A stretch of DNA of 64,000 nucleotides from Brienomyrus brachyistius (Eukaryota > Chordata > Actinopteri > Osteoglossiformes > Mormyridae): positions 2,334,811 to 2,398,810 of the forward strand of contig NC_064552.1 of assembly GCF_023856365.1 (NCBI RefSeq). The letters are read 5' to 3'. Position numbers and translations under genes: made by a program. Below, in pieces: positions 59,701-62,571 of this stretch. Position 1 is the stretch's first letter; the number at the start of each line of letters is the position of its first letter. Under the pieces are notes generated by a model. The model made no database searches. It was not told where the DNA came from and saw only the letters and a program-made list of their open reading frames with translations.

Positions 59701-62571
59701 CTAAATCATGAGTGCCACGTCAGATGCGTGAGAGATGGCTGCCCTGCTTTCCGAGTGCGTCTGTCTCTGACTTTGGGTAGCTGGCGATTCAGTATTACTC
59801 AGCATTAGGAGTCATTTGCATTAATAATCATACATTTCTTTTCCCCCTTACAGTCTGCTGCAACTAAATTTTCAAAATAGCCCAACTGGGCAGGGACACC
59901 GCGGACCTGGCAGCTATGCACCCGTTGCACTTTCCTTTTTCTTTTCTATGCAATCTTTCCTAAACCACTTCCCCTTTTTCCTTTCATCACTTCGGCTTTC
60001 TCCCGCATCTTCAAACCGGTCCAGCTTGTCGCCAGGTGGCGGAGTTTTACCGTTTATACGACGACGGGATATTTACGGCGATTTGCACAAGATACTGTTC
60101 TAATTAGGTTTAATGAAGTAGGGGCATGTAATAGAAGATTTTTATAGGTGACAATATCTACGCAAGTATGCATTGGCATATATATGTATTATTACATAGT
60201 TCCCATACGTTCTGGAAAAAGAGTTTTTCTCTTTTCCAACTAATCGACTCAAAGGAATAAACATACTTATTACTAGCCTTGTAGTTACTAAGTAGTTACT
60301 GTAGTCGCTGCTGCTTGCTGGTGCTGTAAGAGCACTAGAGCTGCCCTGAGTTGGAGAACCAAACGAGGTTCAGCTTTCTGCATGTTAGCGTGACACACGG
60401 CAACATGCACCTGACTGTTCTGGCGGAACCTACCGCTGCTAACGCTAACACCGCCTGTCTCTATGTCTGCAGAGTGACTTTTCTCAGGGAGAGGGCGCTG
60501 TAGAGCCCCCTGCTGTTGAGGAGGTAAGTAAGAGTGAGCGGACAGCCGCAGAAGCAGCTTAGCCCTGATCGAGGTCTAATGTAAAATGAATGTTTAATGT
60601 AAAAATCCATAAATCATTATATCTGTATGCAACAAAACTGGAGTATGTATGGTACATGAGGAAACCTGCAGATCTCTCAATAAACCGGTAAAATAACACC
60701 TCTGTTAATGTTATTGCAATTGGTAATACTGTTGGTCTCTTTGCCTGCAGGGTAACTTTTCCCCAGAAGAGGGCGCCGTAGAGCAGAGGGGTGATGAGGT
60801 ACTGTCCTCTGCACTGTCTTCCCTTTTATTGCACTGCAGTTTGTCTCCTATTGCACCGTTTTCTTGTCCTTTTGTCCCCTCTGGGCACCTGTCCCCGCCC
60901 CTGCAGCTGTGGAACAGCAATTTCACTGTATTCCTCAGAAGTCCAGTGACAGTAACATGATTCTCTTTTATCTAGTAGCACATTTTGCTAGTATATAGTG
61001 AAACATTTTTATTGTTTACTGCGAAACACCACTGAGACTATATGTGACTTCTGTCTGACAGCACAGACTTGAAATTACTTTGAAATTTCTGCATGTGATC
61101 AGCAAAATATAATTTAGCTATGCAACAAATGTAACTTATGTGTGACATATGAGGAAATTTACAAATCGTGCAGCAAACCCACCGCTGCAAATGCTAATAC
61201 TATTGCTAACACTGCCTGTCTCTTTGCCTGCAGGGTGACTTTTCTCAGGGAGAGGGCGCTGTAGAGCAGGGGGGTGATGAGGTAAGTAGGAGGGAGCGGA
61301 CTGCAGCAGAAGCAGCTTAGCTCTGATCACGGATCAAAACCATGCAGAAATGATTGCGCTTCATGCAACAGCAGGCTTTGCAGTGGATTCCCAACCAGGA
61401 CAATGAAACACTTTCCTTGTTGATTGCGAAACCACCTTGAGACCTTGGACCTCTATCCAACAATAAAGATTTGAGATTATTAGACGTTTCTGGTTCTGTT
61501 TAGCTGTTTAATTTTACACTGTCAAAGATCTTTATTGTCATTTTCAGCTGTATCATACATGGTTCATATTTTGAGATGAAATGATGATCTGATCGTTCAT
61601 TGTGCAAAAAAAGTGACAAATAGAATATAAATATCAATATGAAAGACATTAACAATCTGACTATTTAAAAATGACATACTGAGACATAGATGTAAGACTT
61701 CAAAACATATAAACCTCAGACTTATTAGAGACGCACAAATGACAATTGTATTGTTGCTAAATAATGTTTAAAAGTAGCTCATTTATTATTCATTTTTACA
61801 GCTTCTTCCATTTCATACACATTCTCTAATATTTGACAGTGCTGACTTATCATCCCTATTGTGTATGAAACATGAGGAAAATCTACAAATCTCTACAAAC
61901 CTTAAAAAAACCTACTGTGATGTTAACACTGGTCGTGACACTTCCTGTCTCTGCCTGCAGGGTGGAGAGGGCGCCATAGAGCAGGGGGGCGATGAGGTAA
62001 GCAGGGGGAGCAAAGTGGGGGAGGGGGAAATCTTCTCACTGGTCATCGCAAAACCCCTTCGAGACCTCGGAGAGCTGACAGCACAGATTTGCGATCACTT
62101 CAGAAATGTCTGTCCAGCTTATAGGCACTGTGTATATATTTACTGTAAAATATAACGCTAATGCTAACACTCACTTTGCCTACAGGGTGACATTTCTCAA
62201 GGAGACGGCGCCGCAGAGCCGGGGAGCGATGAGGTACGTGGGAAGGCGTGGACAGCAGCGGCTAACTTCTGATGGAACCATGCAGAAATGATTCTCTCCA
62301 ATCCAGTAGCACATGCTGCCATTCATTCACAAACTGGGACGAGGCACTTTCATTGTTAACTGCAAAAACCATCGAGACCTTGCAACTCTGACAGCACAGA
62401 TTACAGTTCACTTTGATATTTCTGGTTCTGTTCAGACATATTATATATATTTTGCCGTGAAATATGTTACTATATTTTAATGTAGCAAAAGTAGCGTGTT
62501 TGAAACATTATAAATTATAAATGTTGCACTGAAAAAATCTCTCTATCTCTCCCCCTCCATTCTCCCAGTGA
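56560..62571 (+). CDS. sncg: Gamma-synuclein copy 2 with expanded acidic tail (9 coding exons, 186 aa predicted)
   Basis: This is a tandem paralogue of copy 1. Exons: 56560-56716, 58172-58213, 58372-58499, then five acidic modules at 60473-60523, 60751-60798, 61234-61281, 61961-61996 and 62186-62233, and the stop exon at 62569. The N-terminus is MNLVRGAAREAKVDKLTEGF, where codon 13 (GTG at 56596) stands where copy 1 has its ATG. KTKAGV, KIKEGV and KTKEGV repeats follow. Exon 3 reads TNWATEQAGIVGDTVVEGAD...MVASTGLVNP. The modules are variants of GDFSQGEGAVEQGGDE and add about 23 net negative charges over 77 residues. All are phase 0 with AG/GT borders; exon 4b has a weak donor (gtactg). The frame then stops at TGA, the first codon of the last exon. 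Family tails are normally much shorter. Whether all modules are used together is not known. Confidence 0.82.
56717..58171 (+). other. sncg: SNCG copy 2 intron 1
   Basis: From 57219 to the acceptor it is nearly identical to copy 1 (44716-45662), with about a dozen base changes plus a changed C tract. Earlier parts (56960-57140) are moderately similar to 44098-44330. Confidence 0.7.
58172..58213 (+). CDS. sncg: SNCG copy 2 exon 2 (42 nt)
   Basis: It encodes GSKTKEGVVSSVNS, the same peptide as copy 1. The last base is t, so the junction codon with exon 3 is TTG (Leu) instead of ATG. Confidence 0.9.
58372..58499 (+). CDS. sncg: SNCG copy 2 exon 3
   Basis: It encodes TNWATEQAGIVGDTVVEGAD then DISQQTMTEVENMVASTGLV and NP. 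By eye about 79% of bases match copy 1 exon 3. Donor gtgaga. Confidence 0.9.
58500..60472 (+). other. sncg: SNCG copy 2 intron 3
   Basis: It is shorter than in copy 1 and lacks the large palindrome and the 32-bp minisatellite. A CpG-rich stretch lies at 59095-59310. CTCF-like cores lie at 58539-58553 and 60030-60044. The last 165 bases match copy 1 before exon 4. Confidence 0.6.
59095..59310. promoter_or_regulatory. CpG-rich segment in SNCG copy 2 intron 3
   Basis: CpG density is high (gccacggcgcgagccggc, gtctcgcg, gtgcgccgcggtgacccagcgccgcc) in an AT-rich intron, with a possible donor (cgtaag|gtaagc). It could be an internal promoter or an inserted element. There is no reading frame support. 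Confidence 0.35.
60473..60523 (+). CDS. sncg: SNCG copy 2 acidic module exon 4a (51 nt)
   Basis: It encodes SDFSQGEGAVEPPAVEE, the only module with a different ending (PPAVEE for QGGDE). Acceptor tgtctgcag, donor gtaagt. Confidence 0.85.
60751..60798 (+). CDS. sncg: SNCG copy 2 acidic module exon 4b (48 nt)
   Basis: It encodes GNFSPEEGAVEQRGDE. Acceptor tgcctgcag is strong; donor gag|gtactg lacks the usual purine-rich +3 to +6, so this exon may be skipped often. Confidence 0.72.
61234..61281 (+). CDS. sncg: SNCG copy 2 acidic module exon 4c (48 nt)
   Basis: It encodes GDFSQGEGAVEQGGDE, the consensus of the set. Acceptor tgcctgcag, donor gtaagt. Confidence 0.85.
61961..61996 (+). CDS. sncg: SNCG copy 2 acidic module exon 4d (36 nt)
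   Basis: It encodes GGEGAIEQGGDE, a module missing four codons (DFSQ) by an in-frame 12-bp loss. Acceptor tgcctgcag, donor gtaagc. Confidence 0.82.
62186..62233 (+). CDS. sncg: SNCG copy 2 acidic module exon 4e (48 nt)
   Basis: It encodes GDISQGDGAAEPGSDE. Acceptor tgcctacag, donor gtacgt. Confidence 0.82.

Follow-up and report, generated by a model that had tools for sequence, protein, structure and literature searches.

Two tandem gamma-synuclein genes lie on the plus strand of the analyzed window, a stretch of 64,000 nt from the genome of Brienomyrus brachyistius. Upstream of the pair, the segment 27512-31856 contains exons that encode Activin_recp and kinase domains, which we take to belong to a BMPR1A-type receptor gene; in human, BMPR1A adjoins SNCG. 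A low-complexity array whose translation consists of GGREGERGG repeats was seen on the minus strand at 17200-18140, and further simple arrays near 8400-9100 and 14430-14960. The first synuclein gene, copy 1, has the following exons:

42332-42452, plus strand, exon 1 of copy 1 (MDVLMKGFSTVKEGVV...), from reading of the sequence
45663-45704, plus strand, exon 2 of copy 1, borders recomputed
46151-46278, plus strand, exon 3 of copy 1, borders recomputed
47578-47595, plus strand, 18-nt exon of copy 1 encoding DEAVYE, between exons 3 and 4, AG/GT borders, phase 0
51779-51826, plus strand, exon 4 of copy 1, the sole tail module SDFSQGGGAMEQGGDE, borders recomputed
52202-52210, plus strand, final coding exon of copy 1, GY followed by the stop, borders recomputed

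The joined copy 1 product of 115 residues matches the Pfam Synuclein family (PF01387) with an E-value of 5.9e-44, above the curated cut-off. It ends in SDFSQGGGAMEQGGDE-GY, and its tail counts 18 residues with a net charge of -4. The DEAVYE peptide is similar to part of the sncgb proteins from other fish (identical in P0005, similar in P0042 and P0050), and the pattern DE[AP]V[YFN]E has no second occurrence in the three plus-strand frames of the window besides 47578-47595. Tandem units of ~30 bp (gattgctgcgaatcccgggtaagcttgtcccg) were spotted by eye at 47780-48040, within the long copy 1 intron.

The body and the two ends of the second gene, copy 2, are encoded as follows:

56560-56716, plus strand, exon 1 of copy 2 with an upstream ATG start (MNLVRGAAREAK...), also found in the database proteins P0001 and P0002
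58172-58213, plus strand, exon 2 of copy 2, borders recomputed
58372-58499, plus strand, exon 3 of copy 2, borders recomputed
59113-59190, plus strand, extra 78-nt phase-0 exon of copy 2 with a basic stretch (PSHGEAPPQNVGPRREPASFTSVSRK), AG/GT borders, found in the B. brachyistius NCBI protein
62569-62571, plus strand, last exon of copy 2, an immediate TGA stop followed by the 3' UTR; the copy 1 counterpart is GGATATTAA

With all five tail modules and without the 59113-59190 exon, copy 2 encodes 186 residues. Its identification as a second gamma-synuclein, put forward in the original prediction, was borne out by the match to Pfam Synuclein (E 8.7e-34, above the curated cut-off). Moreover, KTKEGV-type repeats are present in the N-terminal part (EKTKAGV, SKIKEGV and SKTKEGV), and the acidic C-terminal tail that marks the family is there as well. 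Both termini have changed. The ATG of the conserved MDV start has been lost, GTG being found at 56596-56598, and an in-frame ATG is located upstream at 56560; such an MDV start is usual among synucleins, although the Pfam model does not demand it. At the other terminus the tyrosine is missing, as the stop lies two codons before that of copy 1 and the tail contains zero Y. A GY end is found in several fish sncgb proteins but is not universal.

Between the body and the last exon of copy 2 lies an array of five homologous tail exons:

60473-60523 (51 nt), plus strand, tail module a, SDFSQGEGAVEPPAVEE, AG/GT borders, phase 0
60751-60798 (48 nt), plus strand, tail module b, GNFSPEEGAVEQRGDE, with the weaker donor gtactg, AG/GT borders, phase 0
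61234-61281 (48 nt), plus strand, tail module c, GDFSQGEGAVEQGGDE, AG/GT borders, phase 0
61961-61996 (36 nt), plus strand, tail module d, GGEGAIEQGGDE, four codons shorter, AG/GT borders, phase 0
62186-62233 (48 nt), plus strand, tail module e, GDISQGDGAAEPGSDE, AG/GT borders, phase 0

Recomputation from the sequence reproduced what had been predicted for this region (60473-62233), namely five exons of 51, 48, 48, 36 and 48 nt, all symmetric in phase 0 and bordered by AG/GT, which when joined give a tail of 77 residues with a net charge of -23 (24 D/E and 1 R). The tail is thereby about four times longer than that of copy 1 (77 residues and -23 versus 18 residues and -4). The predicted exon list was right in its five modules and overlooked the phase-0 exon at 59113-59190. 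The label 'micro-exon' was given up: vertebrate micro-exons usually do not exceed ~27 nt, so that for exons of 36-51 nt the term 'short exons' is preferable. Each module carries 4-5 negative charges, and the 32 possible combinations span 0-77 residues and charges of 0 to -23. An S-x-x-D/E motif, which is a kinase-type site, occurs once each in modules a, b, c and e and is lacking in d.

The proposal that exon and intron were duplicated together was supported by a self-comparison of the array, in which the modules align to each other with their flanking introns: a to c over 127 columns at 86% (E 2.6e-38), c to e over 306 columns at 70% (E 1.5e-28), b to c (E 7.9e-26) and c to d (E 1.6e-15), these E-values being valid for a small, array-sized search. 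Module d is also close to c, of which it is a shorter version. A chance pattern as the source of the array is ruled out by these matches. The array thereby shows two marks of a tandem exon duplication, namely homologous exons side by side and intron flanks that were copied with them. The intron string that was said to be shared by all modules is exact before c and inexact before the other four, as the 28 bases preceding a, b, d and e match it at 25, 23, 15 and 20 positions, respectively (ungapped). When the six module exons were turned into a profile, whose recovery of those six is by construction, no seventh or decayed module emerged in the window, the introns of copy 1 included (next best E 0.59). 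The array is not listed by Tandem Repeats Finder for 56000-64000, because diverged introns part the module exons.

The array was also found in public protein records. The top database match to copy 2 was a gamma-synuclein-like isoform X1 of B. brachyistius from NCBI (P0001). This protein joins all five modules and, once 26 residues are set aside, is identical in every letter to the product of the joined copy 2 exons; the 26 residues are encoded in the window at 59113-59190. A protein of Paramormyrops kingsleyae (P0002), which represents a second mormyrid genus, has the five modules in identical order and lacks the 59113-59190 exon. Its modules are identical to those of copy 2 at 10/16 (a, the most changed), 13/16 (b), 15/16 (c), 11/12 (d) and 14/16 (e) residues and its body at 101/109, so that the two genera differ at 13 of the 76 compared tail residues versus 8 of the 109 of the body. 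P0002 shares with copy 2 the MNLVRGAAREAK stretch, the upstream start and the loss of the terminal GY. It also matches 56488-56559, directly upstream of copy 2 exon 1, and thus has a 5' sequence of its own; a candidate for a 5' exon in this P. kingsleyae copy 2 model, near 55176-55214, was rejected as too weak (9/13 residues, E 0.22). Both full-length records are most likely automated predictions, as the form of the isoform X1 name suggests for RefSeq. The presence of the same modules in the same order in both genera is most simply explained by an array that predates the split between Brienomyrus and Paramormyrops.

Outside the mormyrids the repeat was not encountered among the proteins compared. 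A search with the tail only (E up to 10), which is limited to proteins within a length range that have exact five-residue words in common with the query, returned three proteins, all mormyrid. In addition, we collected 183 proteins, a subset of the synucleins made up of the best 120 of 279 matches, the tail-only matches and the best 120 of 174 matches, and 177 of these offered a tail to examine. Among these listed matches the module repeat was present in 3/177 tails, again all mormyrid. Any repeated five-letter word was present in 7/177: the three with modules and four others with one word each (GGGGG, LLSIL, GGEGG and GGEGG). Other teleost sncgb proteins (P0033, P0035, P0042 and P0050) end with a single tail unit, such as GDFQGGMEQGGDGGEGY in sardine. 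The tail-cutting motif was found in 109 of 185 sequences (the 183 plus the two copies of the window), the other 76 being dropped, and among the 109 scored the tail of copy 2 is the most acidic (-23), followed by P0001 (-21), P0002 (-20) and a next value of -15; the median charge of -4 is only rough, because some of the sequences are models that read into introns. Taken together, the five-module array is conserved and, as far as searched, specific for mormyrids, and its exons are most likely coding.

A comparison of the two copies suggests how the array arose. Upstream of copy 1 exon 4 the sequence equals that upstream of module a (100/100 bases), and downstream it resembles the sequence after c (113/148) and e (107/135). 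These matches, together with the intron parts that the modules have in common, fit a stepwise internal duplication, and we infer that an ancestral exon 4 with flanking intron was duplicated repeatedly inside copy 2 before the genera separated. The stretch after module b (60748-60957) is shortened compared to P0005 of P. kingsleyae, which continues as VSGREQ...; the donor gtactg of b may be the result of a deletion after b.

The two genes form a mosaic of near-identical and diverged parts. Near-identity extends over the 3' part of intron 1 (934/945) and exon 2 (40/42), the stretch preceding exon 4 or module a (166/166), the last exon with 3' UTR (516/521) and further 3' sequence (256/263). The corresponding tract pairs are:

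44718-45704 and 57218-58213, plus strand, near-identical tract of copy 1 and copy 2
51613-51792 and 60307-60486, plus strand, near-identical tract of copy 1 and copy 2
52208-52722 and 62575-63090, plus strand, near-identical tract of copy 1 and copy 2

The exact runs end 14 bases into module a and resume at the stop codon of copy 1. Exons 1 (100/118) and 3 (102/128) are diverged, and so are the noncoding 5' parts of intron 1 (173/214) and intron 2 (98/118) and the last intron (255/325). Considering the synonymous-site difference of 0.25-0.31 between the copies in exons 1 and 3, the near-identical tracts must be younger, and recent gene conversion would be their natural reading. The idea that the exons were held diverged amid homogenized surroundings gains no support, as part of the noncoding sequence is equally diverged and exon 2 lies within a near-identical tract; the mosaic is thus no proof of selection for separate exons.

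The gene structure and the conservation of the array suggest that the probable product of copy 2, with its five tandem acidic penultimate exons, is a synuclein whose tail counts 77 residues with a net charge of -23, which would entail that the transcript is made and translated. The greater change of the tail than of the body between Brienomyrus and Paramormyrops (13/76 versus 8/109 residues) speaks against this reading. Whether the length of such a tail is fixed or set by splicing has to be weighed separately. That the array is transcribed with every module always included, yielding a fixed long acidic tail without splicing control, has in our estimate close to an even chance; the symmetry of the exons would then merely be what allowed the duplications. 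This is in line with the inclusion of all five modules in the full-length P0001 and P0002 and with the strong donors of a, c and d, for which the calculated pairing to U1 amounts to -10.2, -10.2 and -9.6 kcal/mol. The donors of b (-5.7 kcal/mol) and e (-6.0 kcal/mol) are weaker, which speaks against constant inclusion, although the donor of copy 2 exon 2 is weaker still (-4.4 kcal/mol). The 'isoform X1' label and the four sequences clustered under P0002 likewise hint at alternative forms. Since the modules are symmetric cassettes of 4-5 negative charges each, skipping would set the tail length stepwise from 0 to 77 residues, and such graded splicing is plausible from the exon structure. The stronger proposal of a splicing rheostat, by which neurons or electromotor nerves would set tail length, charge and phosphorylation among the 32 combinations, is one we regard as doubtful.

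It is unlikely that transcripts begin at copy 1 and splice into exon 3 and the modules of copy 2, which would provide an alternative tail to a protein with a normal N-terminus. In three P. kingsleyae models (P0003, P0004 and P0005), exons 1-2 or 1-3 resembling those of copy 1 do continue in frame into an exon 3 or modules resembling those of copy 2. However, assembly collapse of near-identical tracts could yield identical chimeras; moreover, P0003 and P0005 end by reading into introns, P0004 shares the last 80 residues of P0005, and P0002 starts from its own 5' sequence.

The coding status of the array was assessed from the sequence itself. Between the six modules, among which exon 4 of copy 1 is counted, the synonymous difference exceeds the nonsynonymous one (pS 0.319 and pN 0.174 over 15 pairs), as it does in the synuclein body (pS 0.253 and pN 0.130). 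In a neutral simulation with the same amount of change, in which the consensus served as ancestor and only substitutions were simulated, all five modules stayed open with intact AG/GT in 3.9% of 20,000 runs (0.039). In the same simulation the changed codons in the modules were not unusually few (p 0.19) and the preservation of charge was borderline (p 0.06); the amino-acid constraint on the modules thus appears weak. An AlphaFold model of copy 2 consists of a long single helix and an unstructured tail, but as its confidence is low throughout (mean pLDDT 48.5, no residue at or above 70) it does not serve as evidence. We judge the array of copy 2 to be coding because it is open in two genera, because pS exceeds pN and because of the 3.9% chance in the simulation, with a confidence that is kept moderate by the values of p 0.19 and p 0.06, the weak donors of b and e and the loss of the canonical start and the GY. 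That copy 2 is instead a decaying duplicate, silent or without a stable protein, whose modules are open by inertia, would agree with those losses, the relaxed pN/pS near 0.5, the 4% chance of full intactness under neutrality and the fact that automated models can call decayed genes, yet is improbable given that another genus has likewise preserved the start region, the five modules and the early end.

Assuming that the predicted protein is made, its properties can be sketched by analogy. According to PMC4663547, liposome binding is a property of each of the four synucleins of fugu, and filaments are formed by alpha and the two gamma forms. The N-terminal part of copy 2, with its KTKEGV-type repeats, likely binds membranes as in other synucleins. 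Charge and hydropathy predict a disordered tail, which on vesicles would act as a calcium-sensitive arm and as an electrostatic and steric brush of increased size. PMC5818535 states that the C terminus of alpha-synuclein binds calcium, which raises lipid binding, and by extension a longer acidic tail may raise solubility and calcium sensitivity.

The effects of tail length and charge on solubility, membrane binding and calcium response have mostly been studied with shortened synucleins. Copy 2, whose tail has grown during evolution by entire units, shares a genome with a short-tailed copy, so that natural proteins become available for addressing these effects. The synuclein family was first found in an electric ray. 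The present case adds tandem exon duplication to it in a further electric fish. Abstracts of mormyrid papers describe the mormyrids (elephantfish, including B. brachyistius) as weakly electric; a role in the electric sense is not implied. The synuclein family, tandem exon duplication and the proteins as public records are known already. The original claim that a synuclein with a repeat-exon tail had not been described agrees with the literature searched (titles and the starts of abstracts of the papers listed), in which neither such a tail nor a paper on mormyrid synucleins was found; the word 'synuclein' has zero occurrences in the main text of the Campylomormyrus genome paper (PMC10029256).

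Known systems resemble the array in part. Teleost sncgb genes have the Pfam Synuclein domain, the exon order and a tail exon homologous to the module in common with copy 2, which differs by five copies of the tail exon, a new start codon and the absence of a terminal GY. In the consulted passages of PMC4663547 the fugu synuclein genes have five coding exons and zebrafish sncgb has five exons, and the two spliced isoforms of the latter, with divergent C-terminals, are presented there without mention of a repeat. For human alpha-synuclein, the isoforms of 126, 112 and 98 residues result from skipping of exon 3, exon 5 or both, and aggregation is faster for those lacking tail exon 5 (PMC10873642). 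The likeness lies in an exon that is skipped in frame, with a shorter acidic tail and altered aggregation as the outcome, but there a single tail exon is skipped, whereas copy 2 has an array of duplicated ones. Tandem duplicated exon substitutions, as characterized in PMC9741552, also involve neighboring homologous exons inside one gene; those are mutually exclusive, one replacing the other, whereas the five of copy 2 can be joined. Finally, very small symmetric exons whose skipping keeps the frame are found in the micro-exon genes of schistosomes (PMC4350168), which encode unrelated proteins. Their coding region consists mostly of micro-exons, whereas in copy 2 this applies to the tail only. 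The short exons of copy 2 (modules 231 nt, exon 2 42 nt) account for slightly less than half of its coding sequence of 561 nt, and exons 1 and 3 measure 157 and 128 nt.
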